From: a virus
Strand: one strand, 5' to 3'
DNA length: 29,440 nucleotides
IMG/VR virus record: IMGVR_UViG_3300042317_000661
Location: 1-29,440 of that record
Below the pieces are notes generated by a model. That model worked only from the letters and a program-made list of their open reading frames with translations, ran no database searches and was not told the DNA's origin. Numbering within the stretch: the stretch's first letter is position 1; each line of letters opens with the position of its first letter. This document shows, piece after piece, positions 3,758-22,889 of the stretch. The position numbers were made by a program, and so were the translations under genes.

Positions 3758-4215
3758 ATATGCACCTTATGTTTTTGCATTTCTTCTTTAGTTTTAAATG
3801 GTCCAACAAACTCATATCTGCTTAGTGTAATATTTTTTGGGCAATATTGCTCCACCCAAAAACCGTTTAGTTTAATCAAATAGTATCCAGCACAAAATAA
3901 ACTTTTACTTTTTGCTGTTTTACTATAGATAGGCAAACGCCTTTGTACATCCCATACTTCGTTATATGACTTACCACTAATTGGAAATTCATAAACTGTT
4001 TTTGTATTTTCTTTTTTCTGTTTGTTGGCAGTACCAAATTTAATTTGATATTTTTGTTTTAAAATTTTAACACTAGCGAAGAACTCTCTGTGTTCGTCAT
4101 GAACATAAACAAAACCACCATCTGCTTTGGCCTGTATGGTTGCAATTTTTTGGCCGCGATCTTCTACAACCCAAAATTTATTTTTAATTACCGGTTTGGC
4201 TACTCGTTCTGTCAT
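3745..4215 (-). CDS. Hypothetical protein
   Basis: This 156-aa, Lys- and aromatic-rich protein has no recognised domain. The N-terminal 60 residues read like a beta-rich fold (KFWVVEDRGQKIATIQ, GGFVYVHDEHREFFA). The C-terminal part ends with FVGPFKTKEEMQKH, a pattern that resembles the closing strand and helix of SPOR- or WGR-like small domains, though I cannot assign either. It overlaps its upstream neighbour by ATGA and sits in a tightly coupled run from 5468 to 3548. Confidence 0.6.
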   Translation of the reverse strand: MTERVAKPVIKNKFWVVEDRGQKIATIQAKADGGFVYVHDEHREFFASVKILKQKYQIKFGTANKQKKENTKTVYEFPISGKSYNEVWDVQRRLPIYSKTAKSKSLFCAGYYLIKLNGFWVEQYCPKNITLSRYEFVGPFKTKEEMQKHKVHICKN

Positions 4216-4487
4216 GTTTTTGCCAGTGTGTGATGTGTAACAATTTTTCCAAGTTCTTGTCCAAGATCTTGTGTATCACCAATTACATACATGTCGTCTT
4301 CGTTTCCATAGCCGTGTGATACTTTAACTACATATCCGCCATGAGCAGTATGTATATCAATTGAGATTTTTTTGTTAGGTAATAATTTCCCCCCGTCTAT
4401 AGCATATTTGCCAGTTAGGTCAAACTGAGAAATTTGTCCGACTGTAATAGGGGCAACACTTCCTGCCATGGTAGAATAATTGCTCAT
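4212..4487 (-). CDS. Hypothetical protein, paralogue of the adjacent 4484-4759 gene
   Basis: This 91-aa protein and the one encoded just upstream share a pattern: a TA-x-GG-hydrophobic segment, a divergent polar loop, a Y-x-I strand, a D/E-D pair and a final amphipathic helix. Here it is TAHGGYVVKV, MYVIGDTQDLG and then a helix ending in LAKT. I know of no function, though similar small proteins occur in marine T4-like phages. Start and stop overlap neighbours as ATGA, giving translational coupling. Confidence 0.65.
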   Translation of the reverse strand: MSNYSTMAGSVAPITVGQISQFDLTGKYAIDGGKLLPNKKISIDIHTAHGGYVVKVSHGYGNEDDMYVIGDTQDLGQELGKIVTHHTLAKT

Positions 4488-4759
4488 AGTTTCATTTGCT
4501 CCAACATAATTGCCTGTGCCACTTGCTTGGCAAAGTCTTCGTCTTCGTGAATCATGTATAGTGTGCCTTCGGTGCGATCAGTTTTTTGATTGTATACACG
4601 AGATTCAAGAATATGACCGCCCACTGCTGTATATAAACAAAAGTTCATACCGTTTTGTGATGGTGACGATCTATCTCGTTCGTGTACTACCTCGGGTCGC
4701 GACAATAGAATATCTTCCTCATTTAACCAACGGCGTAATTTTCTTCGTAACCAGTTCAT
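4484..4759 (-). CDS. Hypothetical protein, paralogue of the 4212-4487 gene
   Basis: The longest open frame begins at 4780, but the ATG at 4759 is better: it has GGAGGAAG 7-14 bases upstream and overlaps the previous stop as ATGA. From there the protein is 91 aa, beginning MNWLRRKLRRWLNEED, a basic amphipathic helix that could contact membrane or nucleic acid. Residues 38 onward match the TA-x-GG and LYMIHEDED pattern of the next gene, implying duplication and divergence. Function is unknown. Confidence 0.68.
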   Translation of the reverse strand: MNWLRRKLRRWLNEEDILLSRPEVVHERDRSSPSQNGMNFCLYTAVGGHILESRVYNQKTDRTEGTLYMIHEDEDFAKQVAQAIMLEQMKL

Positions 4760-5097
4760 TGTTTTTCTTCCTCCATGCACAATACCTTCATTATTTCAAA
4801 CTTGTCATTTAAATCTTTTAACCCAGGATGTCTCGCCATCAGATCATTTAGCCGTTTTTCTTCTTGCATTTTATTGTAGGCCCAAGTCAATGTTTCTTTA
4901 GCATTGGCACTCAAATCAATTTTGGCATTGGTGTCAATACCAAACCATGCTATGCCATTATAAACTTCGATTGAGTTGGTGTTAGAATTATATCTTAACA
5001 AGCCGGCGCTTTGTGCGCCCGGGCTGATAGGAGGCACTCCATGATAACTTTGTTGTACTTGAATCCATTGCGGATCTGAATTTATTTGTTTTATCAT
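4756..5097 (-). CDS. Hypothetical phage protein with tail-fibre-like motif
   Basis: This 113-aa protein has two parts. The N-terminal half contains GLLRYNSNTNSIEVYNG, a motif type seen in fibre and head-decoration proteins of phages, where it forms a short beta repeat. The C-terminal half is helical and acidic (HPGLKDLNDKFEIMKVL). This combination is common in small structural proteins of aquatic T4-like phages. A virion role is inferred, not shown. Its stop overlaps the next gene by ATGA. Confidence 0.62.
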   Translation of the reverse strand: MIKQINSDPQWIQVQQSYHGVPPISPGAQSAGLLRYNSNTNSIEVYNGIAWFGIDTNAKIDLSANAKETLTWAYNKMQEEKRLNDLMARHPGLKDLNDKFEIMKVLCMEEEKQ

Positions 5098-5468
5098 ATG
5101 TAATCAGCAGTTAAAAAAGTCACTGTAAATCCAATGATCAAGTAAATCATTGCATGTAAGAATTGATCTAGGCCAGTCCATAGCCAAAAAGCGTTTGAAT
5201 CCACACTCAAACGCACAGTGGCTCTACGATGCATAAAGTCAAAAATATAATGCATTACACTATCAAATACCGCAATTATTACACAGGCCTGAATGTTTAA
5301 AAAGTGCATGAGAATCACATAAGTTAAAACGCCATGTAATCCTGCGTGTTGAAGGCCACCCAATCTACCCAGATGACCTTTGTCTTTGATCATTCTGTCA
5401 CTTTGCCAGCAGAAGTCTGCTAGAAAGTGTTTAAAAAATAACAAGGCTAGTATAAGCCAAGTAATCAT
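5094..5468 (-). CDS. DUF3307-family membrane protein
   Basis: This 124-aa protein matches the DUF3307 pattern: an N-terminal hydrophobic helix, then FLADFCWQSDRMIKDKG with the conserved D-x-x-x-Q, then HAGLHGVLTY, a further helix and a DSVMHYIFDF segment. Three or four membrane segments are expected, placing it in the host inner membrane. The family occurs in bacteria and phages with no established function. It overlaps the exonuclease gene at both the start and reading frame (ATGA), so it is co-translated with it. Confidence 0.75.
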   Translation of the reverse strand: MITWLILALLFFKHFLADFCWQSDRMIKDKGHLGRLGGLQHAGLHGVLTYVILMHFLNIQACVIIAVFDSVMHYIFDFMHRRATVRLSVDSNAFWLWTGLDQFLHAMIYLIIGFTVTFLTADYI

Positions 5469-6454
5469 GCCGGGTACTCCGCACCTAATAGCTCGGCATA
5501 GTTTGAACTATGCTCACTGAGCTTATTCAATTCATATTTGCCACAGAACTTCAAAAACTGAGCACCTACCATGGGACGACTTCGCTTGACTGCTCCTGTA
5601 GCAATAGTTTCTGCAATTTTATTTTTAATTTCCTCAGGCTGTGCAGTAAGATCCACTAGCACTCTATTGCGTTCATAGTCATCTAACACTCGATGTTCCA
5701 CGCCGTGATGGTCTGTCCATCTTTGAAGCATAAGGTTATTCCAAGCATATCCTTTTTTATGTTTGTCAGCAAAAGCTTCAGTGAGACCAATTTTGTTCTT
5801 GCTGCCCTTGGTCCTAACACCCGGGTATGCGGAAAAGATATTATCTGTCGGATCTCCACGCATACACTTCTCAAACAGGATCCATTGCGGATCAGGAATG
5901 ACTTTGGGTTCTTTTGTTTTTTTATCAATGACCAGTTTACCTTTTTTGTCCAGGATACCTGTTAGCGTATGGAGTTCATCGGCAACACCGTTATATTGCT
6001 GTACGTTTGGTGCCAGTAACTGGTAGAAATCTGTGTCGGAGGAAATGATAACATGATCGTCATTGGGGTGTGCGTGTATGAATCCTGCAATAAGATCATC
6101 TGCTTCAAGCTCTGGATGTTGAAGAACTGTGCAATTAGTCTTTTCCTGCAGGAACGTTTTAAGGTTATCAAACGCTTCCCAAAATAGTCGATCCTCTTCC
6201 TGTTCTGATTCGGTAAGGGCAGCACGAGCGACCGCACGATTCTTTTTGTACGGCTCGTAATAATCTTTTCGCCACGAGCGTCCTTCCAAACAGAATACCA
6301 CATGATCGGCTTTCTGATCCCGCCAAGCCTTATTAACCGAACCGAGGGTAACATGAATAGCGAACCCTAACCTATCCCAAGTATCCGATTGACGATGGGC
6401 CGAATGACGGGCACGGAAGAATGTATTTGCAGTGTCTACGATTAGATATCTCAT
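5465..6454 (-). CDS. rnh: T4 RNase H-like 5'-3' exonuclease / flap nuclease
   Basis: This 329-aa protein has the acidic metal-binding residues of the FEN/T4 RNase H family in order: Asp7 near the N-terminus, the FCLEGRSWRKDYY region (about 54-66), ELEADDLIAGF (about 115-125), SSDTDFYQLL (about 138-147) and GDPTDNI (about 200-206). After it comes the PGVRTKGSKNK turn typical of the helix-three-turn-helix DNA-binding element. The enzyme removes RNA primers and flaps from lagging-strand fragments and would work with the clamp and polymerase of this window. T4 RNase H is 305 aa, so the size fits. No good ribosome site precedes the ATG. Confidence 0.9.
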   Translation of the reverse strand: MRYLIVDTANTFFRARHSAHRQSDTWDRLGFAIHVTLGSVNKAWRDQKADHVVFCLEGRSWRKDYYEPYKKNRAVARAALTESEQEEDRLFWEAFDNLKTFLQEKTNCTVLQHPELEADDLIAGFIHAHPNDDHVIISSDTDFYQLLAPNVQQYNGVADELHTLTGILDKKGKLVIDKKTKEPKVIPDPQWILFEKCMRGDPTDNIFSAYPGVRTKGSKNKIGLTEAFADKHKKGYAWNNLMLQRWTDHHGVEHRVLDDYERNRVLVDLTAQPEEIKNKIAETIATGAVKRSRPMVGAQFLKFCGKYELNKLSEHSSNYAELLGAEYPA

Positions 6455-6470
6455 GCATTAATAGTAGCAT

Positions 6471-6498
6471 ATTATAACAACCTGGTCAAGTGCGACAA
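6471..6498 (-). promoter_or_regulatory. Extended -10 promoter for the exonuclease gene
   Basis: The minus strand reads TGTTATAAT (6479-6471), a perfect -10 with the TGn extension. A TTGTCG lies 16 bases further upstream as a weak -35. It overlaps the end of the SGNH-like gene and leaves a leader of only about 10 bases before the ATG at 6454. Confidence 0.5.
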
Positions 6499-7152
6499 AA
6501 GAAATTCTGCCCATTTTCTATGTGCATCTGCTCTAAAATGATAGGACGAATTGGATTGGAATCCTTGGTCCGTTAACCATTTCCAGTAAGTCATATTAGG
6601 ATCGTATGGGTCAACATATGAGTCGTGCCAATCGGTTGGTTGTTCAGTATGGAAGTCATTGTAAGTATTAAAGAACAAATGTGGTATACCAAAATCTAAT
6701 AATTCGCTATGGAAAGCATGAATTTGCTGATGCGCTAATTTGGTTCTTTCATTCCAATTTAAATTTACAACATAATCCTGATATTGCTGTTTAATTGGAT
6801 CAGGCCAATCATGTCCGACACCGCCCGCATTGATTTGCCAATATACACCATCATGCAACCATTCTTCGCGCTCCCAGGTGCTCCATCCTATAATAACAAA
6901 ATCTGGTGTAATAGTTTCTAAATATTTCTTAGTGGTTCTAATTATTCTTGAATTGGAACTAGCTGACTCTGCATCACAATGTAATATAGCAAACAATTCA
7001 TTTGCTATATTGCAACCATAACTTGCTTTTTCATTATCCGGATGTGGAATACGGCCTAGGGCATGATAGAATGGGTCATCTTCAGCAAAACAATAATCAT
7101 TTACCGCTTCTGCCCCGGCGCTATGACTATCTCCGTTTACATAAATTATCAT
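6472..7152 (-). CDS. SGNH/GDSL hydrolase-like protein 1
   Basis: This 226-aa protein starts MIIYVNGDSHSAG, with the GDS block that carries the nucleophilic Ser in SGNH hydrolases (Ser9). The C-terminal FRADAHRKWAEFL supplies a D-x-H pair of the expected type. A central WSTWEREEW segment follows a strand (DFVIIGWST), as in the family. Enzymes of this fold remove acyl or acetyl groups from sugars or lipids. The substrate here is unknown; capsule or LPS O-acetyl groups are plausible. It overlaps the next SGNH-like gene by a single base. Confidence 0.65.
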   Translation of the reverse strand: MIIYVNGDSHSAGAEAVNDYCFAEDDPFYHALGRIPHPDNEKASYGCNIANELFAILHCDAESASSNSRIIRTTKKYLETITPDFVIIGWSTWEREEWLHDGVYWQINAGGVGHDWPDPIKQQYQDYVVNLNWNERTKLAHQQIHAFHSELLDFGIPHLFFNTYNDFHTEQPTDWHDSYVDPYDPNMTYWKWLTDQGFQSNSSYHFRADAHRKWAEFLLSHLTRLL

Positions 7153-7820
7153 TATTTTCTTTTAAAGATTTGTTCAAATGTAGTAGTTGGCGCATCAAAA
7201 TCTGCATAGGTAGCAGTAAATGTTCCTGGTTGTAAAGAATTGTTTATTAGGCTGGCAAGTTTGGAATGTGTTTCATCTGTAAAATGCCCTGATCTCATAT
7301 CTATATAGTGATCGTATATAGAAGCCAAATCAGGATCGGTGAAATAATGAGATGTTTCTTGAACACAAAGATCAAAAAGATTAAAATCTTTGCCATAATA
7401 TCTTGTTGCAAATGTAGGAATTGTTAAAAGATTTGGTATTTTGTTTTTTAAATATTCCGTTATACAATATGCAGCAAATTCGGCATCATCAACATCTACA
7501 ACTAAGTTTAAAAATTTTTCTGTTATGTCAATTTTATTTTGCAAATCAAAATTGTTAACTTTACAATGGTGTCGACCTGTAATATGAATATTATTTGAAT
7601 TATGTCTAATAGTATATCTTTGTGGTTGAGTTAAACACCAAATATTTAGATCATAATTTTTGTAATGCTCATATAGTAGTTTTGCAGAAAAAAGCAGGCT
7701 TGAGCCTGCTTCGCCCCAACATTCAACTTGATGCAAATACTTTGTATTTAGATATTTCCACCAAATACTTTCATTTGTATCTTTGTTGGCATAACTATCG
7801 CCAAATACACCAATTTTCAA
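7152..7820 (-). CDS. SGNH/GDSL hydrolase-like protein 2
   Basis: This 222-aa protein starts with TTG at 7820, supported by an AGAGGA site about 8 bases upstream, giving MKIGVFGDSYAN with GDS at residues 7-9. A second family block, WGEAGSSL, lies near 34-41. Near the C-terminus GHFTDETHSKLASLI gives a D-x-x-H pair at the expected place. It is similar in length and layout to its neighbours at 6472 and 8247, so the three are probably paralogues. Enzymatic activity is inferred from motifs only, and some SGNH-fold proteins are inactive binders. Confidence 0.65.
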   Translation of the reverse strand: MKIGVFGDSYANKDTNESIWWKYLNTKYLHQVECWGEAGSSLLFSAKLLYEHYKNYDLNIWCLTQPQRYTIRHNSNNIHITGRHHCKVNNFDLQNKIDITEKFLNLVVDVDDAEFAAYCITEYLKNKIPNLLTIPTFATRYYGKDFNLFDLCVQETSHYFTDPDLASIYDHYIDMRSGHFTDETHSKLASLINNSLQPGTFTATYADFDAPTTTFEQIFKRK

Positions 7821-8246: not shown

Positions 8247-8939
8247 TTAAAATCTTACTGGCGGTTTATTTGTACTATAATTATCACTATTTTCAACAGA
8301 TCGCGCCCACGATCTAGTTGCTTCTGAGATCGGAATGTCTGGTACTACCTTGTCCAAATATTCCAAATGCTCTATAGAAGTTGGATGCATATCTTGTTCT
8401 TGTGGTCTCCATTTGTAATTGAAGACTTTTTCATATACACTAGGTCGAATATTTTCTAAAGTATTTGCATAAAGATCAAATAAAGGTTGTGCTTCGTCTA
8501 ATTCGGCAATAGTGTATTGATCATAATTTTGTATAGGAACCATAGATAAAAATATAAATTTTACGCCTAAATTTTCTAAGTAATTCTTTGCGGCGTGTAT
8601 CACAGCAAGGTCTCTAACAAAACATCCTTTTATATCAAAATATCTATGCAAAAATTCTGGGCTGTAAAAATATGTTGTAAAAACATTGCCATGTGTTTCC
8701 CAATTATCTTTGATGTAACGATCTTCTCTTGTTACATTTGTCCACATTATTACTACAGTATCATCTGGGTTAAATTTATTTCTTAACGAACATTCAATCA
8801 AACTATTAAAAATAAATTGATTGCCGCCTCCAAGTTTGCCCCAATTTTCAAAATAATCAAATTCTTTGCCTAAAATGTCTGCCCATGTGGGCCAAAAGTA
8901 TTGCGTAAAACTACAACCAAAAGTAAAGAGTCTGCGCAC
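8247..8939 (-). CDS. SGNH/GDSL hydrolase-like protein 3
   Basis: This 230-aa protein starts with GTG at 8939. The N-terminus reads RLFTFGCSFTQY, where GCS replaces the usual GDS block but keeps the Ser. WGKLGGGNQFIFNSL (about residues 33-47) matches the family's Gly and Asn oxyanion blocks, and DMHPTSIEHLEYL near residue 185 supplies the D-x-H pair. A strand DTVVIMWTNVTRED is typical of the fold. Of the three SGNH-like proteins here it keeps the clearest Gly/Asn block. It begins just after queE (3-base gap). Confidence 0.68.
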   Translation of the reverse strand: MRRLFTFGCSFTQYFWPTWADILGKEFDYFENWGKLGGGNQFIFNSLIECSLRNKFNPDDTVVIMWTNVTREDRYIKDNWETHGNVFTTYFYSPEFLHRYFDIKGCFVRDLAVIHAAKNYLENLGVKFIFLSMVPIQNYDQYTIAELDEAQPLFDLYANTLENIRPSVYEKVFNYKWRPQEQDMHPTSIEHLEYLDKVVPDIPISEATRSWARSVENSDNYSTNKPPVRF

Positions 8940-8942
8940 TAC

Positions 8943-9797
8943 TCAAGTGCCCCATTCGTTCTTGAATAATGGCACTTGTAATCGATCACTATACCGTAAT
9001 CCATGTTTCATTGCTAATAGTGCAACTGCTCTATTGTTTAGAGAATATATACTTTCTACACCACCAACTGGCATTAGATATACCGAGCCCTTGAATCCTG
9101 CGTTGCGATATTGCTCTACGGCCTTTAGTGCATCTCGAACATCTTCTGCAGTAGACACAACCAATTTAAGATAAGTGTGTCCTAGATTTTGATACTGACA
9201 TACAATGTCGGGACGAATAGCCTCATCCCAATTTTCGCCACTGACAGGAAGCTTGGCACTGACACTAAATGTAAGTGCTTCGCGACAGCGTCCTTGTGCA
9301 CCGGTCCAGTCGGTCAAGTACTCTTGAAATTTAGTATCCAATTCTTGTGTGCCATTTGTTTCAAAAGTAATTTCTTTTAACTTTTGCATACGGGGATGAT
9401 TAAGCAAGTCGGCGTAAGCTCGTTGCCAACCTAGCAATGGTTCACCACCGGTGATTACAAGATGTTCATCTTTCCATTTACCATGCGGAAGAATTTCCAT
9501 AATGCGTTCTACAATGGCATTAGAGTCTAACATGGGACTTAGGTCTTTGAATCTTGGATCCCACGACGCATAACTGTCACACCCTGTGCTCACAAGAGGC
9601 AATTGTTCATATTTGCTAAAATAATGGACTCTGGCTGCAATATCTTCTATTTCTCTAGATAACTTTCCTTTAGGCATGCCAAATCCTTTGCAAGTAAAGT
9701 TACAACCAAAAGTGCGAAGGAACACACTAGGTACTCCCATGTATCTACCTTCACCTTGTATGCTATAAAATAATTCTGCTACTTTGATTTTACTCAT
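8943..9797 (-). CDS. queE: 7-carboxy-7-deazaguanine synthase (radical SAM)
   Basis: QueE rearranges 6-carboxy-tetrahydropterin to CDG. This 284-aa protein shows SIQGEG (12-17), which marks QueE, the first cluster cysteines Cys32 and Cys36, and VITGGEPLLGW (114-124), the SAM-binding GGEP element. The third cysteine of the usual C-x3-C-x2-C is not close by. The best candidate is Cys73 in TGCDSYASWD, after an insertion of about 35 residues. The downstream ETNG at about 146 is also typical. The start overlaps queD by ATGA, so the two are co-translated, and the unit has its own promoter upstream of queD. CDG would feed the DpdA-like enzyme at 22881-24428. Confidence 0.9.
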   Translation of the reverse strand: MSKIKVAELFYSIQGEGRYMGVPSVFLRTFGCNFTCKGFGMPKGKLSREIEDIAARVHYFSKYEQLPLVSTGCDSYASWDPRFKDLSPMLDSNAIVERIMEILPHGKWKDEHLVITGGEPLLGWQRAYADLLNHPRMQKLKEITFETNGTQELDTKFQEYLTDWTGAQGRCREALTFSVSAKLPVSGENWDEAIRPDIVCQYQNLGHTYLKLVVSTAEDVRDALKAVEQYRNAGFKGSVYLMPVGGVESIYSLNNRAVALLAMKHGLRYSDRLQVPLFKNEWGT

Positions 9798-10297
9798 GCA
9801 AATAGGTCCTCATTCCACTCTCTATGGCCTTCTCTGAAAGCCATGTTGGCTTGTGTTTCACGCACTTCTACTCTATAACACCAAAGTCTTTCGGCTTCCC
9901 CAGGCCCCCACATATCAGGAATATAAACACCGTTAACAAACTTGTACAGTTGATCGGCTAGACCTTCGCAGCCCAACTTAGGCAATACAACGATCTTGGC
10001 CATTTTCCGTTCTTGTAGCAGTTTGAATGTGGCCAATTCAGGATCGTCCTGTGCCACAATCAAGGTATGGTCAAACTGATCTTCAAGGATCCGCTTGAGG
10101 TCTTTAAGGCCGCCGTAGTCAGCTGCCCAGTTACGCACATCCAGATCGTCTGTGCCAAAGTAGAACTTCATGCTAAAGCTATAGCCATGAATTAGGTTGC
10201 AGTGACTATCGGCTCGCCATTGGCGATATGCACACGGAAATGCATCGTGATATTCTTTTGTGCTTGTATATTTGTAAACTCTTGTTGCTAAAGACAT
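9794..10297 (-). CDS. queD: 6-carboxy-tetrahydropterin synthase
   Basis: QueD converts dihydroneopterin triphosphate to 6-carboxy-tetrahydropterin. The 167-aa protein has the T-fold family layout: Cys33 as catalytic thiol followed by IHGYSF (36-41), FDHTLIV with Asp76-His77, and VEVRETQAN with Glu147, which anchors the pterin. The usual zinc motif is HGH. Here it is HGY, with Tyr39 in the third ligand position, while His32 sits directly before the catalytic Cys. Zinc may therefore be held by a rearranged set. It is the first gene of the queD-queE unit, has a CATAGGAG ribosome site and follows an extended -10 promoter. Confidence 0.85.
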   Translation of the reverse strand: MSLATRVYKYTSTKEYHDAFPCAYRQWRADSHCNLIHGYSFSMKFYFGTDDLDVRNWAADYGGLKDLKRILEDQFDHTLIVAQDDPELATFKLLQERKMAKIVVLPKLGCEGLADQLYKFVNGVYIPDMWGPGEAERLWCYRVEVRETQANMAFREGHREWNEDLFA

Positions 10298-10305
10298 TTT
10301 ATTCT

Positions 10306-10329
10306 CCTATGTTAAGATTTTAGCATAGG
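10306..10329 (-). repeat. Inverted repeat around the queD -10, downstream arm holding the ribosome site
   Basis: On the minus strand CCTATG (10329-10324) and CATAGG (10311-10306) are separated by 12 bases. The -10 element lies in the first arm and loop. The second arm is part of CATAGGAG, the ribosome site of queD. RNA begun upstream could fold and mask the site; RNA begun at the local promoter would lack the first arm. Confidence 0.45.
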
Positions 10330-10346
10330 CCTGCAGAATTTGTAAA
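10317..10346 (-). promoter_or_regulatory. Promoter for queD-queE
   Basis: On the minus strand TTTACA (10346-10341) is followed by 18 bases and TAAAAT (10322-10317), preceded by TGC, so this is an extended -10. The predicted start of RNA lies near 10310, just before the ribosome site. Confidence 0.55.
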
Positions 10347-10383
10347 GCGGGATGAAGAGCCAGGAAGGCCGCTGTGTAGATTT

Positions 10384-10391
10384 GTATTTAT
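10384..10391 (-). promoter_or_regulatory. T4 late-promoter-like octamer upstream of queD
   Basis: The minus strand reads ATAAATAC, the same octamer as at 3525-3518. It lies between the phosphoribosyltransferase stop and queD, about 85 bases before the queD ATG. RNA from here would include the inverted repeat at 10329-10306. This is a weak call in AT-rich DNA. Confidence 0.25.
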
Positions 10392-10395
10392 GCTT

Positions 10396-10944
10396 TTAAT
10401 TTTGCCACCAATTTTCCCAAGGGAATACAATCCAACAAGGATCGTCTAATTTATTAATACTACGACCGCTGTAATCAATACCTTGATAATTGCTGGCTTC
10501 GTTGTTGATGACAACAGCGAACCTTACATTACGATTCCATATGGCATCCCATGCAGCGTGATTTGGTAAACAACTACTAGCCCAATCTTGACGGATCCAT
10601 TCTAGTGTTGCACCAGAATCATTTATATCGTCAACGATTAAGATGTTTTTACGATATGCAGGATCTGTGTCTGCATCGCCGGATCCGCGCTCATCTTTTG
10701 GAACATAACCAAACGCATGTTCAGCCATCCAGAGATTGCTTTCTGACTCACCACCATCTCGCAGACTTACTTTTAATGTCTCGCATGGTACATCAAAATA
10801 GTGACTGATCATCAAGGCCGGCGTTAGTCCGCCTCTAGTGATACCTACCACATAATCAGGACGCCAATCACTGTTGGCAATGTCTCGGCAAAGTTCGTGA
10901 ACCAATCCTTTAAATTCGCGATTTGTGATGTGTAATTTTTTCAT
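10396..10944 (-). CDS. Phosphoribosyltransferase
   Basis: This 182-aa protein has a type I PRTase signature: ILIVDDINDSGATLEWI (about residues 91-107), the PRPP-binding loop, preceded by VVGITRGGLTPAL (about 32-44). Such enzymes transfer phosphoribose to purine, xanthine or pyrimidine bases. The C-terminal CWIVFPWENWW resembles xanthine/hypoxanthine PRTases. Its place beside queD suggests a link to purine or deazaguanine metabolism, but that is only suggested by position. No ribosome site precedes the ATG, which begins 1 base after the lipoprotein stop, so translation is likely coupled. Confidence 0.8.
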   Translation of the reverse strand: MKKLHITNREFKGLVHELCRDIANSDWRPDYVVGITRGGLTPALMISHYFDVPCETLKVSLRDGGESESNLWMAEHAFGYVPKDERGSGDADTDPAYRKNILIVDDINDSGATLEWIRQDWASSCLPNHAAWDAIWNRNVRFAVVINNEASNYQGIDYSGRSINKLDDPCWIVFPWENWWQN

Positions 10945-10945
10945 A

Positions 10946-13363
10946 TTAGTAAAAGTATTTCAGTTCAAGTTGAGTTCTATACTGTCCATTATCTACAAAC
11001 ATTCCTGATATTTTATATGCAATATTTTTTGTAATCGTATCTGTATAAACAGTTCTTAGATACATGTTTACAGGATTGTTTATCTTGAAATGCGTATTAG
11101 TATATTGTATATTACCTTGAGTGTCAATACCAGTTGGTAATTCTGCATTTACACTGCCATTTACAATCCAGGGTCTTACTCCGGTAAAAAAACCAAATCG
11201 TTTTGTGGCGTATCCTGTTTCTAACCATACAGCATGAAAGTTATCTACTTTAGTAATTAGTCCAGGGTTAATGTCACTAGTTGTCAGAATATAACCAATT
11301 TGATTTTGCCAATCAGATTTTTTATAAGTTACTGTAGATTCAAACATCGATGAATAATTTATACTGCCCCACATACCACTTAGCTGAATCCATGGATTGT
11401 AATTAAGTGTTGTAATTTGTGCGCTAACAGACAAAGATTCATTAATTGGCAACAATGATGTGCCTATGCTCCAGACGCTGTTATTACCTCCAAAGCGCAT
11501 ACTACTATATTCATAGTTACTGCCACCTATTAGGTATTCTGTTTGACTGCGTGGTGTAACTTGGTCTGGTACATAATTTCTTGACCAAAAGTTTGAATCA
11601 TTTATCACAGAAGGAGAAATGTTAATAGCAAAGTTTCTTCCTAAACTGTCTAAAGCCTGAACAGGCAATTGCACTGATTCTATTTTGATACCAGAGATAT
11701 AACCTGTAACTGGTAGGTGTTTAATTTGTAAACCACCAATTGGTGACAATGCTGCATCCAAATCAATTACATCACCGTTTAAATATGTTTTTGATGTTTG
11801 TGACAATACAGTGTTAGCTGTAGCATCGCTCATCCATGGCCATCTAGCTTGAACTGTGCTAATTGCTTGTGCTGCGTTAACAAAACTATCTCCAATGAGA
11901 CCAAGATAAACTGCCATTTGATTGTTACTTAATTTTACCGCTGTAATTAAATAAAGTTTGTCATCCGGGCCGCGCAGAACGTTTAAAGTATTACCCACAT
12001 TTGGATGATTGGCAATGGCATTTGTTTGTGCAGAAAAATCTGTTAAAACATTTTGATAAGCTGCCATGTACTTGCCATCGCTTGTTTTTAACAAAATCTG
12101 ACTACTATTGTTTTGGTAAAAATCCCCGGCAGTTGGTAAAAGTATATCAACTAAACCGTCCCCGTTAATATCTACAAACTTAGGATTATAGCTTACTACT
12201 GTATTTGTATTGTATCCGACTACCACGTTGTCAGTTTCGTCGGTAAAATTACCGTGACCGTCATTTTTTAAAAATTGTATTTCACTAAATTTAGGCCATC
12301 CATCGACTAGATTTCTAGTTGGTCGACTGAGTACAATGGCATCCATAACACCATTGTCGTTCCAATCATATGCTATCACTCTTACATTGTGTCCGGCACT
12401 GCCCGGTATTCCTCCGCTAAAATTATAAGATGCCCATTTAGGTAACTCAAATCTTGGTTTAGGACCTAAACTAATTAGAGAAAAATTCAGATTATCGGAA
12501 CCGTCAATATTCCAACTATAAAGTCCTGGTTCATTATAACTATTCCCCTGTGAGTTTCCTTGATCAACAGCTAGTATAGTTTTCGTTCCGTTATTTAGAA
12601 AATCAGCAACAGCCAAGCTACTCATGCCAGGCAAACTTCTATATTGCTGGGTATAGGTTACAAAAGTCCTATTACCTTGATTGAATGCAAGTGCAGTGTT
12701 CCATCCATAATCACCAATAATGATATCTTTGTGACCATCATTGTCTAAATCTGCAATTGCGATATCATGAGCTTCAACATGGTTTTTAGAGTCAGCCCGT
12801 GCCAATTCAGATGGCGCAATGTTTATATCTATTGTTGCTCTTGTGAAGGAATTATTAGGATTGTTAAAGTATGCATAAGCAGGATGTTTAATTGTTGTGA
12901 CACCATCCGTATAAGGAGCCACAACCATATCTAATCTACCGTTGTTGTCTAAATCTGCAAACTTAGCTGTGTGAGCTCCTACTATTTTATTTTCTTGAGC
13001 AGTGAACCAAGTGCTAGTTTGATCAACAAGTTTATTATTTTGCCAACCATAAATTGAAATATTAAAGTCTTTCCAATTAGATTCATTGGCAGGTTGGCTT
13101 TTAAAACCTGTAACAATTAGATTGTCTCCAGAACTAGTTAATTTTTCAGTGTGTAAATCAACAATTGCCCAGGAGTAATCCTCAGATGTTGTTGCTAGTG
13201 GGGTTATATATCCAGCTTTGGTTGGGGTATAATATGGTACAGGATACGAAGGCTGTATTGGAGGATTATAAGAAGGACGTACAATAGGACTACTACCTCC
13301 GCCACCGCACCCAAAAAGAACTAATACGATTGCTAAAATTGCAACACGCATAAGAAAATCCAT
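10946..13363 (-). CDS. Large FG-GAP/VCBS-repeat lipoprotein with beta-rich C-terminus
   Basis: This 805-aa protein begins with a hydrophobic signal (MRVAILAIVLVLFGC) ending in a lipobox with Cys19, followed by a Gly/Ser and Pro/Tyr-rich linker to about residue 60. At least four FG-GAP type calcium loops follow: DLDNNGRLD (137-145), DLDNDGHKD (205-213), DWNDNGVMD and DINGDGLVD. These form beta-propeller blades. The last ~200 residues are rich in alternating hydrophobic/polar strands and end in LELKYFY, a C-terminal aromatic typical of outer-membrane barrels. It would be exported by the infected cell, acylated and displayed in the envelope. It is very large for a phage lipoprotein. A role in surface masking or superinfection exclusion is conceivable but untested. 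It has no ribosome site at its start. Confidence 0.82.
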   Translation of the reverse strand: MDFLMRVAILAIVLVLFGCGGGGSSPIVRPSYNPPIQPSYPVPYYTPTKAGYITPLATTSEDYSWAIVDLHTEKLTSSGDNLIVTGFKSQPANESNWKDFNISIYGWQNNKLVDQTSTWFTAQENKIVGAHTAKFADLDNNGRLDMVVAPYTDGVTTIKHPAYAYFNNPNNSFTRATIDINIAPSELARADSKNHVEAHDIAIADLDNDGHKDIIIGDYGWNTALAFNQGNRTFVTYTQQYRSLPGMSSLAVADFLNNGTKTILAVDQGNSQGNSYNEPGLYSWNIDGSDNLNFSLISLGPKPRFELPKWASYNFSGGIPGSAGHNVRVIAYDWNDNGVMDAIVLSRPTRNLVDGWPKFSEIQFLKNDGHGNFTDETDNVVVGYNTNTVVSYNPKFVDINGDGLVDILLPTAGDFYQNNSSQILLKTSDGKYMAAYQNVLTDFSAQTNAIANHPNVGNTLNVLRGPDDKLYLITAVKLSNNQMAVYLGLIGDSFVNAAQAISTVQARWPWMSDATANTVLSQTSKTYLNGDVIDLDAALSPIGGLQIKHLPVTGYISGIKIESVQLPVQALDSLGRNFAINISPSVINDSNFWSRNYVPDQVTPRSQTEYLIGGSNYEYSSMRFGGNNSVWSIGTSLLPINESLSVSAQITTLNYNPWIQLSGMWGSINYSSMFESTVTYKKSDWQNQIGYILTTSDINPGLITKVDNFHAVWLETGYATKRFGFFTGVRPWIVNGSVNAELPTGIDTQGNIQYTNTHFKINNPVNMYLRTVYTDTITKNIAYKISGMFVDNGQYRTQLELKYFY

Positions 13364-13398
13364 TATGTAAACTATGAAACACTAGTTTAACATAATGG
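13360..13398 (-). repeat. Long inverted repeat overlapping the lipoprotein start codon and -10 box
   Basis: On the minus strand CCATTATGTTAAACT (13398-13384) pairs with AGTTTACATAATGG (13373-13360), 14 pairs with one bulged T and a 10-base loop. The first arm contains the -10 box of the local promoter and the second contains the ATG at 13363. It can act as an operator or as an RNA hairpin that hides the start. Confidence 0.75.
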
Positions 13399-13412
13399 AT
13401 ATAATTTGTCAA
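13384..13412 (-). promoter_or_regulatory. Sigma70-type promoter for the FG-GAP lipoprotein
   Basis: On the minus strand a perfect TTGACA (13412-13407) lies 17 bases before TAAACT (13389-13384). The -35 starts just after the stop codon of the upstream gene. RNA would start near 13377, giving a leader of about 14 bases without a ribosome site. Confidence 0.65.
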
Positions 13413-13841: not shown

Positions 13842-14519
13842 TTACTCTCTCCTCCCACCAAAAAGGTGTAATAAACTTAAGAATAAATTAATAAAGTCCA
13901 AGTACAAAGTAAGTGCGCCCATGACTTCTACTGCAGGCCCGTCTGACTCCATAATTTGTTCTCTAATCTTTTGAGTATCATAGGCAGTCAATCCCAAAAA
14001 GATTATCACTGCCGCTGCACTCACAAACATTTGTAATGCCGATGATCCTATGAAAATATTAATGATACTGACTATAATGATTGCAATTAAACCGATCATC
14101 AGATATTTTCCAACACTATCTAAACTTTTTTTGGTAAAATATCCATAAAAACTCATTACACCAAACAATACTGCTGCACCCAAAAAGGCATTTACAATAC
14201 TGGCTGTGGTATATATTACAAATATAGTAGCAAAACTCAAGCCCATTAGGGCTGCGAAACCATGTAGGCAAAGTTGAGCAGTAGATCGACTTGGATTATT
14301 TCCTAGCACATATCCAACACCAAAGATAGCCGCAAGTGGAGCAAAAATTACAATCCATTTTACAATACCTGTAAAAAAGAAAGTCATTAGTACTGCATTT
14401 GATGCTACAAACATACTCACAATCATGCTTGTTATTACTGCTAGTGCCATATTACCATACACACGACTCATAGCACTATTAACTTCTGTTGCTGTTCGAT
14501 AAGGCAATGCATATTCCAT
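13842..14519 (-). CDS. Bax inhibitor-1 (BI-1/YccA) family membrane protein
   Basis: This 225-aa protein has seven hydrophobic segments from about residue 24 to 215 and the family's closing signature: TAYDTQKIREQI (about 178-189) and GALTLYLDFINLFLSLLHLFGGRRE at the C-terminus. Bacterial members such as E. coli YccA lie in the inner membrane and restrain the FtsH protease. A phage copy could protect phage or host membrane proteins, or interfere with cell stress responses, but this is inference. The gene has GGAGAT 5 bases before its ATG. It is flanked by small phage genes with no sign of recent insertion. Confidence 0.88.
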   Translation of the reverse strand: MEYALPYRTATEVNSAMSRVYGNMALAVITSMIVSMFVASNAVLMTFFFTGIVKWIVIFAPLAAIFGVGYVLGNNPSRSTAQLCLHGFAALMGLSFATIFVIYTTASIVNAFLGAAVLFGVMSFYGYFTKKSLDSVGKYLMIGLIAIIIVSIINIFIGSSALQMFVSAAAVIIFLGLTAYDTQKIREQIMESDGPAVEVMGALTLYLDFINLFLSLLHLFGGRRE

Positions 14520-14543: not shown

Positions 14544-14795
14544 TTATACTAGCTCTTCAATTACACCAAGTATTTCGGCTGCAATTAAAAATGCTCCAGC
14601 AAGCATTAAATTTTGTGGCCAAACCAACGCAATACCAGCAGCGATTCGTGTTGCACTTTTTACTAGACTTACATAAAAATGTCCCGGGCTAGTATCTCGA
14701 GGTTGAATATTCAGTAGCGGTGGGTGATGTGGACAACGACCCTGTTGCCAATCACAATCTGGTGAATATTCCTTATTACAAGTTGTACATTTCAT
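14544..14795 (-). CDS. Small membrane protein with N-terminal zinc-ribbon-like cysteines
   Basis: This 83-aa protein starts MKCTTCNKEYSPDCDWQQGR, with Cys3, Cys6, Cys14 and Cys21 followed by His23-His24, enough to bind one zinc. From about residue 45 it has two hydrophobic helices (SATRIAAGIALVW and LMLAGAFLIAAEILGV). I do not know a family. It overlaps folE by ATGA and lies next to the BI-1 gene, hinting at a membrane role. Confidence 0.65.
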   Translation of the reverse strand: MKCTTCNKEYSPDCDWQQGRCPHHPPLLNIQPRDTSPGHFYVSLVKSATRIAAGIALVWPQNLMLAGAFLIAAEILGVIEELV

Positions 14796-15487
14796 CGCGG
14801 AGCAAACTCCTGTTGTAATTTGATATTGTCGAAGAATTCTTTCTTGGTACTTTGATCCGTTTTAAACGCACCTTTTAGGACTGTGGTCTGGGTAAGACTA
14901 CTGTGTGCCATAACGCCGCGATTCTCGCAGCAACCGTGGGTGGCCTGTATGTATACAGCCACATCCCCACTTCCAGTCGCAAATTCAATTTCTCGTGCAA
15001 TGTCCATACAAAGTTCTTCCTGAAGAGTGCCTCTCCGGGCACACCACTGGGCGATTCTTGTGTACTTTGAAAGACCAATAAGCTTGGGACCAGCAATAAT
15101 GCCAATATAAGCAACGCCAGAAACAGGCTGGTGATGATGGCTGCAAACGCTCTTGAGCTCGCTTCGTACGACCAACATACCTTCGTATTTTCCATCAGTG
15201 TCATTCGGAAATGCAGTAGCGTTTGGAGTCGGGTCATATCTACCTGCCATTAATTCATTGTAATACATTTTGGCAAGACGCCGTGCTGTGCCCGTACTGT
15301 TAGGATCTGTTGCTCGATCAATTAGTAGTGTATCTAACACACCTTCAAATGCTTCGGTGGCTTCGTTGATTAATTGCTCACGATCATCGTCATTGATATA
15401 GCTGCTAATATTATCTCCGGCCCAATATCTTTTGCCGTCGGATAACATTTGTTCTCTAATGCGATCACTTACCTTTGTATATTTCAT
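14792..15487 (-). CDS. folE: GTP cyclohydrolase I
   Basis: FolE makes dihydroneopterin triphosphate from GTP, the first step towards both folate and 7-deazaguanines. The 231-aa protein has the family landmarks: TARRLAKMYYNEL (67-79), SVCSHHHQPVSG (113-124) with Cys115, His117 and His118 for zinc and catalysis, KLIGLSKYTRI (135-145), QEELCMDIA (156-164) and THGCCENRGV (183-192). The second residue of the usual CEHH is Ser here. The ribosome site GGAG lies inside the last codons of the upstream gene, giving close coupling. With queD and queE it supplies the CDG branch. Confidence 0.92.
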   Translation of the reverse strand: MKYTKVSDRIREQMLSDGKRYWAGDNISSYINDDDREQLINEATEAFEGVLDTLLIDRATDPNSTGTARRLAKMYYNELMAGRYDPTPNATAFPNDTDGKYEGMLVVRSELKSVCSHHHQPVSGVAYIGIIAGPKLIGLSKYTRIAQWCARRGTLQEELCMDIAREIEFATGSGDVAVYIQATHGCCENRGVMAHSSLTQTTVLKGAFKTDQSTKKEFFDNIKLQQEFAPR

Positions 15488-16102: not shown

Positions 16103-17027
16103 TTTGATTCAAGGTTGAATAATTTGGTTGCCAGCCAAGAACTCGCCTTGCCAGTGAGGCATCTGCAATTAATTGACCTGGATCACCGGGTCTACGAGGG
16201 CCAACTTGAATTTGTAACGGGCCATAATTAGCGACGATATAATCAATTATTTCTTGATTGCTTATTCCGCTGTTTGTGCCCAAATTAAATACCGCCCATC
16301 TATTAACTGTATTCCATTTAATTGCACGACAGTGGGCATCTGCTAGATCCCAAACATGGATGTAATCTCTTATACAAGTCCGATCTGGAGTATCAAAATC
16401 TACTCCATTGAGCGTAAAAATTTCATCTTGAATTTTTGATTCTAACAGTCTAGCAATAATATGCCCTGCACCTGGTGCTTGTCCTAGATCTGAATTCTCC
16501 GGTTCGGCGCCTGCTGCATTGAAGTATCTAAAGCATACACTAGGCAATCCATATGCTTGATTATAGTTCTGCAAAATTTGCTCAACTATGTCTTTGGTGT
16601 TTCCATACGGACTAATTGGTCTTACCCGGTCTGTTTCAACCAGTGGAACATGATCAGGATTACCGTACACACTAGCACTAGAACTGAAAAGAACAAGCGG
16701 TTTCTTTTTATAATCCTTAACATGATTTAAAAATTTAATAGTCTTTGCCACATTGTTGTCATAATATTTTGCAGGATCTTCTACACTTTCTCTGACACTA
16801 AGATCTCCGGCACAATGTACAATAACATCAGGTTGCAATTCATCTAACCATAACAAACTCTGTTTAGAAACAAAATCAGTATGCAAAAAACCATCTACAT
16901 TTTTAAGTGTATGATCTCTTCGTTCTCTGTCAATTATATAAATTTCGCTATCATCTAAATTTTGTTTTAAGTAGCGAGAGATGTGACTACCAATGTAGCC
17001 ACATCCTCCGGTAATTACTATTTTCAT
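16062..17027 (-). CDS. galE: UDP-glucose 4-epimerase-like NAD-dependent epimerase
   Basis: This 321-aa extended short-chain dehydrogenase starts MKIVITGGCGYIGSH, the NAD-binding TGGxGYIGSH motif of GalE. It continues with the IVHCAG motif, FSSSASVYGNP with the catalytic Ser, and SPYGNTK, the Y-x-x-x-K catalytic pair near residue 141. RYFNAAGA and the DYIHVWDLADAH region are also characteristic. It is close to GalE in sequence, but the exact sugar cannot be told. It overlaps the glycosyltransferase gene by ATGA and precedes a DegT-like gene, suggesting a small nucleotide-sugar pathway. Confidence 0.88.
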   Translation of the reverse strand: MKIVITGGCGYIGSHISRYLKQNLDDSEIYIIDRERRDHTLKNVDGFLHTDFVSKQSLLWLDELQPDVIVHCAGDLSVRESVEDPAKYYDNNVAKTIKFLNHVKDYKKKPLVLFSSSASVYGNPDHVPLVETDRVRPISPYGNTKDIVEQILQNYNQAYGLPSVCFRYFNAAGAEPENSDLGQAPGAGHIIARLLESKIQDEIFTLNGVDFDTPDRTCIRDYIHVWDLADAHCRAIKWNTVNRWAVFNLGTNSGISNQEIIDYIVANYGPLQIQVGPRRPGDPGQLIADASLARRVLGWQPNYSTLNQIVDSAYQWYTSGI

Positions 17028-18220
17028 TGGTACTTGCTTTCGTGAGTATGTTTTCTATAATCAGTACTCATACGCAACCATTGTTCCCCGTTGCCTTGGA
17101 GAATATCGCAGATGCGATCAACTGTTGCGTCGTTCCACGCACTAAATTTACCCATGTTGTTGTGCGGATGTTGTAAGAGGGGTACAAGTTTTTGTATTGC
17201 ATCTCTAAGCGACCACGGGACATAAAGTCTTTCGCTATCATTTGCAAAAGCTTCTGGGAAACTTCTGTATGCGGGGTATAGTATATTAGCCCCAAGAGTG
17301 TCCGCTTCGCTAGCAGTATTTGAAACCCAATCCTGAAGAGCACAATTAAATAACACTCGCGTATCGTTGAGTAAAGCATAGTAATCATTCTTTTCAAGAT
17401 CTTCGTATACGGTTAGCTTACCTTCTGCTTGTAGTCTGCGTGTACGCTCCATATAAGAACTATTGTTTGAACGCAATTCGCTGCCGCTAAACACACAGAA
17501 CTCGACCTGAGGCCAATCATTATAAGGTAATGCTTGTAGTCTATGATACTCCTCAATCAAGTCCATATAGAAGTCAGGCTGCTTTTCTTGATCCCATCTA
17601 GCAGCAAAACCTACACGGAAAGCTCTATCCTCAAATTTCTTAAGCTCATCTGGCACACGACTGCGTACTTCCTCTTTACCAAACGCAAGACCACTAATGT
17701 TGTACACTGGTGCCCGCCAACCTGCCACCTTCATGTGCATGACCATTTCTTCGTTGGTAGCAAGAACAATGTCTGCAAAACTATCTACCATCTTTTCATA
17801 ATGCCCCATCCATTCTTGCATGCCCCAGACATGAACAAAGTCATCGGGGTCAATAGTTTGTGCAAGACAACGAACGGCAATGCGAGGACGCATATTGCTA
17901 GGCACTTGATCAAGAATGTAAGGTAGGCTCTCGATGCCAGGTTGAAACATGTCTTCAAAGTAGATAACATCTTCACTAGTAACCTCTCCTGCTTTCATTT
18001 TACGAACTAGATTCATAAGTTGGCTCATGCCAAAGTATGTACGACCGTGTGCGTCTAGCACTTGTCCAGTAACAATAGCTTGATCGTTGCTTAGTGTTTC
18101 ACCTTCAACAATTTCATAGTCAATGCCGCGGCGTTCAAATACAGCTCTATTCCACTCTTGCAGTTGTAGTGTGTATCTTGCTTTGTAAGGCTCCAGGCCC
18201 ATATACCATAATTTACGCAT
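17024..18220 (-). CDS. GT-B type glycosyltransferase
   Basis: This 398-aa protein looks like a two-domain GT-B glycosyltransferase. An N-terminal acceptor domain of about 180 residues (LWYMGLEPYKARYTLQ) is followed by VGFAARWDQEKQPDFYMDLIEEY near residue 205, the start of the nucleotide-sugar domain. DYYALLNDTRVLFNCALQDWVSNTASEA (about 300-325) resembles the E-x-x-x-x-x-x-E sugar-nucleotide region. The acceptor could be a virion protein, a host surface glycan or modified DNA. The nearby epimerase implies the donor is made locally. It is translationally coupled to galE. Confidence 0.75.
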   Translation of the reverse strand: MRKLWYMGLEPYKARYTLQLQEWNRAVFERRGIDYEIVEGETLSNDQAIVTGQVLDAHGRTYFGMSQLMNLVRKMKAGEVTSEDVIYFEDMFQPGIESLPYILDQVPSNMRPRIAVRCLAQTIDPDDFVHVWGMQEWMGHYEKMVDSFADIVLATNEEMVMHMKVAGWRAPVYNISGLAFGKEEVRSRVPDELKKFEDRAFRVGFAARWDQEKQPDFYMDLIEEYHRLQALPYNDWPQVEFCVFSGSELRSNNSSYMERTRRLQAEGKLTVYEDLEKNDYYALLNDTRVLFNCALQDWVSNTASEADTLGANILYPAYRSFPEAFANDSERLYVPWSLRDAIQKLVPLLQHPHNNMGKFSAWNDATVDRICDILQGNGEQWLRMSTDYRKHTHESKYQ

Positions 18221-21916: not shown

Positions 21917-22831
21917 TTATTTTTTCTTCCAGCGATCTTTAAATGCATCTGGGCACCATCTCTTTGCAATTTCCATAGGATCATTTTTTCCTAAAATGTC
22001 CAATGACTCGGATGTTAAAGAGATAAGTCTACGTTCAGTTGACCCAGGTGTTATATCATAAAATTTGTGTCTTACTTCTTCTTTAACGTTGTCAAAATCA
22101 GAATCTGGGAGATCTTCAAATAGTGTTATAAATTTTTTATAATAAGAATTACGATTCCATCTGTTATACGTTATTTCCTGAACGGTAGCATTGGTAACAT
22201 CAATCAGTTTGCCATCCACATACTGCAAAACTCCGTCGTTGTATCTTTCAAATGGACGTAGATTTTCGTTTCTAGTAGGACCGCCGTGTGTTCTTTCTGA
22301 GATATGAACTGTTGTAGCAAGAGCATGATTCATAACATATCTGGACATCTCTTTTGGACTTACCCTTCTACTTCGCTCAATGACATCTTTAATTAAATCA
22401 GTTTGAATTTGATCAATGGTAACTGTGTGTTCGCAGTGCCATTCGCTACTAAAGATATCGCCGGTTAGACCAGATAGCCCTAACTCAAGCATTCTTCCTT
22501 GAGCCTTACCACTGATAAGATCTGTTCCACTGTTGCCGGTACTGTGTTGCAATCCCATAACATTTGAATGTAGAGTCCTTACACCACCATTACTCCAGTG
22601 TACACTATCTCCTGTAATACTGGCTTGCTTATAGTCAGAACTGGCTGCAAATCCGCCATTAAAAAATCGTTGGTAATAACAATACGGTTTTAGATCATCA
22701 ATTGTACGAGCACCAACATGATTGGCAAATTTTCTTAAATCTCCAGCAAGAAATGCTAACTTTACACCGGCTTCTATTGCCTTTTTAACTGCTTTGTCTG
22801 GATCTTGGGCAAGTAATTTTTGGATGTTCAT
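21917..22831 (-). CDS. Unknown 304-aa protein downstream of dpdA, possibly HNH-like
   Basis: I cannot assign a family. The protein has a helical N-terminus, then NGGVRTLHSNVMGLQHSTGNSG, then a central block SEWHCEHTVTIDQIQTDLI (about residues 130-148) with two His and a Cys, and a downstream HISERTHGGPTRNENLRPFERY. The E-H-x-V spacing followed by a helix and a V-x-I-S-E strand is reminiscent of small HNH-type nucleases with an EHV-P motif, but the Pro is Thr and the match is weak. It lies directly after the DpdA-like gene and has its own strong promoter, so a role in the same modification or self-protection scheme is possible. Confidence 0.6.
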   Translation of the reverse strand: MNIQKLLAQDPDKAVKKAIEAGVKLAFLAGDLRKFANHVGARTIDDLKPYCYYQRFFNGGFAASSDYKQASITGDSVHWSNGGVRTLHSNVMGLQHSTGNSGTDLISGKAQGRMLELGLSGLTGDIFSSEWHCEHTVTIDQIQTDLIKDVIERSRRVSPKEMSRYVMNHALATTVHISERTHGGPTRNENLRPFERYNDGVLQYVDGKLIDVTNATVQEITYNRWNRNSYYKKFITLFEDLPDSDFDNVKEEVRHKFYDITPGSTERRLISLTSESLDILGKNDPMEIAKRWCPDAFKDRWKKK

Positions 22832-22837
22832 TAACGA

Positions 22838-22875
22838 CTCCTATATTGTGCTGTAACTACATAATAACATAGGAG
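22838..22875 (-). repeat. Inverted repeat around the promoter of the 304-aa gene
   Basis: On the minus strand CTCCTAT (22875-22869) is the complement of ATAGGAG (22844-22838), which is the ribosome site of the gene starting at 22831. The -10 box lies between the arms. The spacing is 24 bases. Read-through RNA could hide the ribosome site, while RNA from the local promoter could not. Confidence 0.45.
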
Positions 22876-22889
22876 AAAATTTAGGTCAA
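22861..22889 (-). promoter_or_regulatory. Sigma70-type promoter for the 304-aa gene
   Basis: On the minus strand TTGACC (22889-22884) and TATTAT (22866-22861) are exactly 17 bases apart, one mismatch from consensus in each box. The -35 adjoins the dpdA stop codon. RNA would start near 22854. Confidence 0.65.

Follow-up and report, generated by a model that had tools for sequence, protein, structure and literature searches.

Background

Phages are known to alter the envelopes of their hosts by means of very small lipoproteins. In phage T5, the small lipoprotein Llp excludes superinfection and acts in the periplasm (PMC9586334). Among bacteria, lipidation is found in the subtilase autotransporters NalP and SphB1, which act by cutting proteins at the surface (PMC9977779), and barrels of type Va, the class to which both belong, are narrow 12-stranded pores (PMC3297439). 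A literature search recovered no paper on a "phage-encoded autotransporter" and no description of such a system.

Here we analyze a gene of a 29.4-kb virus record (IMG/VR IMGVR_UViG_3300042317_000661), the whole of which, 29,440 nucleotides in length, is hereafter termed the window, and which also encodes a T4-type family B DNA polymerase. We estimate at roughly two chances in three that its product is a lipo-autotransporter of phages, displayed on the infected cell, in which an FG-GAP β-propeller has taken the place of a protease passenger.

Results and discussion

Gene, start codon and lipoprotein signal

The open reading frame coincides exactly with the stretch singled out in an earlier reading of the same letters (the original prediction), and lies on the minus strand, which that reading had left unstated (Table 1). 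Its real start is probably Met5, because the N-termini of homologues begin at the equivalent position (MRVAILAIV...) and an upstream hairpin covers codons 1 and 2. A short signal peptide with the lipobox LFG-C19 and a GGGG stretch is followed by a Pro-rich linker, the FG-GAP repeats and a β-rich C-terminus ending in LELKYFY. The lipobox, the four calcium-type FG-GAP loops and the β-rich C-terminus ending in KYFY had all been noted in the original prediction, and each was recovered here.

Iterated searches of IMG/VR yielded a family of 42 members, the window protein included, which was used to build profiles. The Cys and the adjoining Gly-rich stretch are present in 39/39 homologues with an intact N-terminus (as TTTGG in one), and 35 of these 39 match a strict lipobox pattern, the remaining four having LQAC or LYGC. 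By sequence, the protein thus has the Cys-ending lipobox after a short signal peptide that marks a lipoprotein, and it is predicted to be lipidated. The C-terminal ends of many homologues are W-x-x or F-x, with no terminal aromatic residue. In one homologue (L083, positions 4000-6702) a long Thr/Pro-rich low-complexity stalk runs from the lipobox to the propeller, as would fit a surface spacer.

Table 1. Features of the lipoprotein locus and its conserved neighbors, with positions in the window
Feature	Position	Strand	Basis
Putative FG-GAP lipo-autotransporter gene	10946..13363	(-)	ORF of 805 aa; probable start Met5 at 13351 (801 aa)
Predicted type II signal peptide and lipobox, residues 5-19 (VLFG-C19), then GGGG	13307..13351	(-)	Sequence; Cys conservation
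FG-GAP β-propeller passenger, about residues 61-490	11894..13183	(-)	PF13517; AlphaFold2 strands 64-490; Foldseek
Ca-type loop 1, DLDNNGRLD, residues 137-145	12929..12955	(-)	Sequence
Ca-type loop 2, DLDNDGHKD, residues 205-213	12725..12751	(-)	Sequence
Ca-type loop 3, DWNDNGVMD, residues 333-341	12341..12367	(-)	Sequence
Ca-type loop 4, DINGDGLVD, residues 398-406	12146..12172	(-)	Sequence
Putative remnant of the subtilisin (S8) C-terminus with linker, residues 497-545 (within ISTVQARWPWMSDATANTVLSQTSKTYLNGDVIDLDAALSPIG...)	11729..11875	(-)	Profile match to L122, L183
Predicted outer-membrane β-barrel, about residues 601-805	10949..11563	(-)	AlphaFold2; Foldseek; BFVD match
Sigma70-like promoter, TTGACA (13412-13407), 17 nt, TAAACT (13389-13384)	13384..13412	(-)	Sequence
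Hairpin overlapping the -10 box, ending just before Met5	13358..13400	(-)	-18.2 kcal/mol, z -4.4
FolE (GTP cyclohydrolase I), conserved upstream neighbor	14792..15487	(-)	PHROG 2197, 9e-43; synteny
Bax inhibitor-1 family membrane protein, upstream neighbor in the window's clade only	13842..14519	(-)	PF01027, 1.4e-52
Phosphoribosyltransferase, immediate downstream neighbor	10396..10944	(-)	PHROG 8995, 3.6e-11
QueD, conserved downstream neighbor	9794..10297	(-)	PHROG 2389, 1.5e-35

Predicted propeller and C-terminal barrel

The window protein matches the Pfam FG-GAP_3 model (PF13517) with E 1.5e-17 (64.3 bits against a cut-off of 26.9); an FG-GAP match is present in 17 of the 18 family members scanned, and the four loops are of the DxDxDG type. 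The structure was modeled with AlphaFold2, as a whole protein with eight homologues and as a separate C-terminus with 16. The models contain a propeller fold up to about residue 490, for which Foldseek retrieved the ITFG2 propeller in KICSTOR (E 2.8e-7) and integrins; among solved structures the top profile match was to fungal FG-GAP lectins such as PVL. Thereafter follow helices at 497-507, 513-522 and 535-539, a poorly predicted region at 541-600, and then long strands spanning 616-804, with about 13 C-terminal strands in all. Mean pLDDT was 63 and 66 for the two models, and below 50 in the linker region (541-600).

With the whole model, Foldseek matched OmpT and porin barrels besides FG-GAP-type propellers; with the C-terminus model it retrieved pOmpT (E 2.2e-4) and porins, at TM-scores of about 0.3. 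When the latter model was searched against the viral library BFVD, the first match was a family member and the second a phage Peptidase S8/S53 domain protein (E 5.1e-7). The C-terminus is therefore predicted, with modest confidence, to be an outer-membrane barrel, and a closed 12-strand form with the linker helix of autotransporters would go beyond what the modest pLDDT and the TM-scores of about 0.3 to barrels can carry. A propeller and C-terminal barrel strands are both predicted, so that the outcome named in the original prediction as refuting it, the lack of a predicted barrel or propeller, did not occur; the original claim of a large phage-encoded envelope lipoprotein with a barrel-like end is supported. 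Signal, passenger and C-terminal barrel follow one another in a single chain, the barrel at modest prediction confidence.

Searches of curated families with the C-terminus (Pfam, NCBIfam and PDB sequences) were all empty. The Pfam autotransporter β-domain PF03797 had zero matches in the 13 records holding homologues and zero in an hmmscan of 16 members.

Relationship to viral subtilisin-like proteases

Before the test described below, the stretch WPWMSDATANTVLSQTSKTYLNGDVIDLDAALSPIG had been noted from the sequence as resembling the tail of the S8 domain and the linker of subtilase autotransporters. A weak match to PF00082 occurs at the same spot in the homologue L010 (positions 223-273, E 4.8e-4). 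A set of 122 viral ORFs, fetched by means of the S8 catalytic-Ser motif, was accordingly searched with a profile of the family's tail and barrel. Only two of the 122 matched: L122 (22.7 bits, E 3.2e-7, profile positions 7-293) and L183 (21.2 bits, E 8.9e-7); no other ORF exceeded 3.2 bits. The C-terminus of L122 scored 29.7 bits against no more than 6.1 in 1,000 shuffles; with a barrel-only profile the pair scored 17.3 and 15.6 bits against no more than 10.4 in 4,000 shuffles. When the family was aligned with both S8 proteins by hhalign, E was 3.3e-9 over 301 columns. The match starts within the S8 domain of L122 and L183 as delimited by Pfam. By the profile, shuffle and hhalign tests, the family thus shares with these two proteins an S8 tail followed by the same barrel. 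A generic S8-tail profile gave correctly placed matches in the family that did not rise above shuffles, and the claim is therefore based on tail and barrel jointly. The window family has no S8 protease domain with a catalytic triad; only the part that follows the catalytic Ser is retained.

The complete gene of L183 is L229 (record G048), a 910-codon frame with an S8 domain recognized by Pfam, GTSMAAPH at the catalytic Ser and a C-terminal end TYKLVF. L122 (L230/L122 of record G047) is a lipoprotein by sequence, with CGGGGGG in its N-terminus. L230 (positions 8758-12438), a viral S8 protein of 1227 codons, has a lipobox; a long repeat rich in Thr precedes the protease, and an extension follows the barrel region. 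PF00082 at E<=0.001 was found in one homologue-bearing record only, and no true S8 gene was found in the homologue records. A tblastn search with subtilisin against INPHARED retrieved mainly phages of Gram-positive hosts and no useful autotransporter.

The shared segment belongs intrinsically to the S8 fold, which makes the S8 form more likely the ancestral one and the propeller the replacement; the direction of the exchange is in this sense inferred. The original prediction was supported as to an envelope lipoprotein with propeller and barrel, but did not recognize the S8-protease tail or the autotransporter architecture, features that suggest display of a passenger rather than a plain lipoprotein. 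By tail and barrel homology to the viral S8 proteins, the protein probably works like a lipo-autotransporter, although the Pfam autotransporter model does not recognize it.

These comparisons also bear on a porin- or adhesin-like outer-membrane protein with a periplasmic, lipid-tethered propeller, which might, for example, jam a host receptor or transporter from the inside in the manner of T5 Llp. The top Foldseek matches of the C-terminus are OmpT and porins rather than autotransporters, and Llp, which excludes superinfection, works from the periplasm (PMC9586334). Yet the homologues of tail and barrel are S8-protease proteins organized like subtilase autotransporters, and a propeller of about 430 residues is far bigger than a small lipoprotein such as Llp, and we regard a periplasmic propeller as rather unlikely.

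A conserved slot with probably exchangeable modules

The usual gene order of the locus is GT398 - sugar epimerase - aminotransferase-like - FolE - lipoprotein, followed by HIT or phosphoribosyltransferase - QueD - glycosyltransferase, methyltransferase and sugar-nucleotide genes - QueE - exonuclease. In the window's clade the Bax inhibitor-1 family gene is placed between FolE and the lipoprotein gene. Record G048 has GT398, epimerase, FolE, phosphoribosyltransferase, the S8 gene L229, thymidine kinase, QueD, QueE and exonuclease, with identities to the window of 58% for GT398, 72% for QueD and 58% for the exonuclease. Since these neighbors correspond, the slot of the FG-GAP lipoprotein is filled, in a related phage contig, by an S8 protein that shares its tail and barrel. 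Within the family, identities of passenger and barrel are uncoupled: 64% and 28%, respectively, between L071 and L015, as against 42% and 64% between L071 and L079. By these sequence comparisons, passengers and barrels recombine and have separate histories.

The neighborhood has several further features. The putative glycosyltransferase of 398 aa at 17024-18220 (-) has 62.5% identity with a protein encoded by Synechococcus phage BUCT-ZZ01, in which a FolE-QueD-PRT-QueE cluster occurs without the lipoprotein slot. FolE, QueD, QueE, the phosphoribosyltransferase and two large ORFs without a Pfam match are distributed over 8943-10944, 14792-15487 and 21917-24428 (-), and likely constitute a 7-deazaguanine DNA-modification pathway; the ORF at 22881-24428 (-) appears by eye to be a TGT/DpdA-type transglycosylase-like protein. 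Three adjoining ORFs of 222-230 aa (6472-7152, 7152-7820 and 8247-8939, all (-)), starting with GDSHS, GDSYA and GCSFT motifs, recall SGNH hydrolases, the first two having no match in Pfam.

Two alternatives can be weighed against this setting. Under the first, the architecture would be as proposed, with a nutritional or adhesive role in which the propeller captures glycans or ions, or glues infected cells together, in place of a block on rival phages. It draws on the many sugar-nucleotide and queuosine-pathway genes nearby, and on the PVL-like lectins as best profile match among solved structures; the neighborhood equally fits glycan remodeling of the cell surface or of the capsid, and is thus non-discriminating. 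We consider such a role rather unlikely. Under the second, the protein would be a virion structural component or a tail-associated adhesin, with the FG-GAP domain as its receptor-binding part, as might befit a large β-rich phage protein and the ligand binding of FG-GAP propellers. However, a signal peptide and lipobox Cys are found in every complete member, the gene sits among nucleotide- and sugar-metabolism genes more than 100 kb from the gp23 capsid gene (G001, G035 and others), and a PHROGs search of the window protein returned no match, all of which makes a virion protein very improbable.

Putative promoter and hairpin

Homologues have a sigma70-type promoter-like sequence, TTGAC(A/C/T)-N17-TATAAT, some 60 nt ahead of the start codon, at the same distance as in the window. 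At most one mismatch to TTGACA-N17-TATAAT was found in 26 of 38 members, as against 31 of 3,000 random places; the copy in the window has two mismatches, and that of the S8 gene L229 in G048 is perfect. The -10 box is embedded in an inverted repeat in the window's clade and in some others, and this repeat stops just short of the real start codon; in the window, none of 200 shuffles was as stable. Although the arms of the hairpin vary in sequence among phages, their pairing is maintained in these groups. The hairpin would form in read-through transcripts from upstream but not in those started at the internal promoter, and hairpin and promoter might possibly constitute an early/read-through switch. 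The arrangement resembles the early/late control of T4 gene e. The T4 late-promoter motif TATAAATA was not found in the window.

Distribution and origin

Contigs with homologues reach 344 kb; the gene is single-copy in 13/13 records checked, and a T4 gp23-type capsid gene is present in 6/6 large records tested. The nearest cultured phages by DNA polymerase and capsid, all distant, are Sinorhizobium phage Phosso, Vibrio 2.275.O and the PA5oct group. When 84,980 bacterial and archaeal genomes were scanned twice, 51 and 44 pattern matches were obtained, of which zero were confirmed. INPHARED phages were searched by tblastn with the full-length protein and with several C-termini, and plasmids with one C-terminus; nothing significant was retrieved. 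Both codon use and GC of the gene are inside the range of its neighbors in the window. The gene is therefore a resident of gp23-type jumbo phages and not a recent host acquisition, being single-copy, syntenic within the phage group, without a match in the genome scans and of ordinary codon use. The original prediction had entertained a recently acquired host gene, and had proposed a search for bacterial versus phage homologues and a comparison of codon use as checks; neither lends it support. An origin as a bacterial adhesin or lipoprotein gene of recent arrival, carried as cargo without a dedicated role, would explain the bacterial style of the architecture, but is hardly credible in the face of 42 phage homologues in a conserved neighborhood, their absence from the genomes, plasmids and INPHARED phages searched, and unexceptional codon use.

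Proposed mechanism

The gene, lipobox, predicted propeller and barrel, S8 tail and barrel homology, slot, mosaicism and promoter-like sequence were observed or computed, and from these we infer the surface exposure and function of the propeller. The preferred reading, a displayed lipo-autotransporter with an exchanged passenger, would entail the following: 1) The ancestor would have been an S8 (subtilisin) autotransporter of phages, whose protease domain was replaced by a propeller, with the last S8 helices (WPWM... to ALSPIG) retained beside the barrel. 2) The protein would be exported by Sec and lipidated at C19. 3) The C-terminal barrel would be inserted into the host outer membrane via the BAM machinery. 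4) The calcium-loop propeller would thereby be displayed outside the infected cell, tethered at both ends. 5) There it would bind a surface glycan or protein and so mask or remodel the surface during infection, with such benefits as excluding rival phages or preventing renewed adsorption of progeny to the cell. The roles suggested in the original prediction, masking of a receptor or a change in adhesion, may apply. As a speculation fitting the anatomy, the step from protease to propeller would turn "cut the receptor" into "cover or bind it".

More broadly, it is an evenly poised question whether T4-like jumbo phages possess a surface-display locus, namely a single-copy autotransporter slot with its own promoter and a swappable passenger, by which the surface of the infected cell is remodeled. 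The passenger modules would be a subtilisin protease or an FG-GAP propeller, with differing combinations of propeller and barrel.

If true, such phages carry a type V-like secretion module of their own, and a single gene makes superinfection and surface remodeling by jumbo phages amenable to testing. It would also represent a natural exchange of passengers on an autotransporter scaffold, with the S8 tail as a molecular fossil at the joint. Many homologues could then be annotated together.

Comparison with known systems

Relatives of the window protein are already in public databases, uncharacterized. One family member, A0A6J5L9S5 of UniProt (uncultured Caudovirales phage, 831 aa, 32% identity over the C-terminus model, E 2.3e-19), is annotated by its repeat alone ("Repeat domain in Vibrio, Colwellia, Bradyrhizobium and Shewanella"), without function or architecture. 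What appears new, no description having been found, is a large display protein of modular make-up, with the build of a bacterial autotransporter and swapped cargo, in lytic-type jumbo phages.

The propellers of integrins, ITFG2 and PVL are alike in their FG-GAP repeats with DxDxDG loops, as seen in the Foldseek and profile matches, but belong to other contexts, none of those fungal and animal proteins being fused to an outer-membrane barrel. T5 Llp and T1-type Cor are likewise phage-encoded lipoproteins of the Gram-negative envelope. However, Llp is small and periplasmic, without barrel or propeller, and no homology was seen; with 805 residues and two more domains, the window protein departs from the small build without further domains expected of the Llp/Cor class.

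Among the nearest systems are the viral S8 autotransporter-like proteins L229 (G048), L230/L122 (G047) and A0A6J5TBB6 of BFVD, which share tail and barrel at E of about 1e-6 to 1e-9; L229 also occupies the FolE-QueD slot with the same type of promoter, and L122 has a Cys-Gly lipobox. They differ in that the S8 domain is intact, and L229 lacks a lipobox, its signal peptide being a plain one. NalP of Neisseria and SphB1 of Bordetella share the layout of lipidated N-terminus, passenger and C-terminal barrel, and viral S8-protease proteins of the same layout are homologous to the phage tail and barrel. The likeness to NalP and SphB1 is one of layout, and the phage barrel is too divergent for PF03797. 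The present protein is set apart by being phage-encoded, and by a passenger that is a calcium-loop FG-GAP propeller and not a protease.
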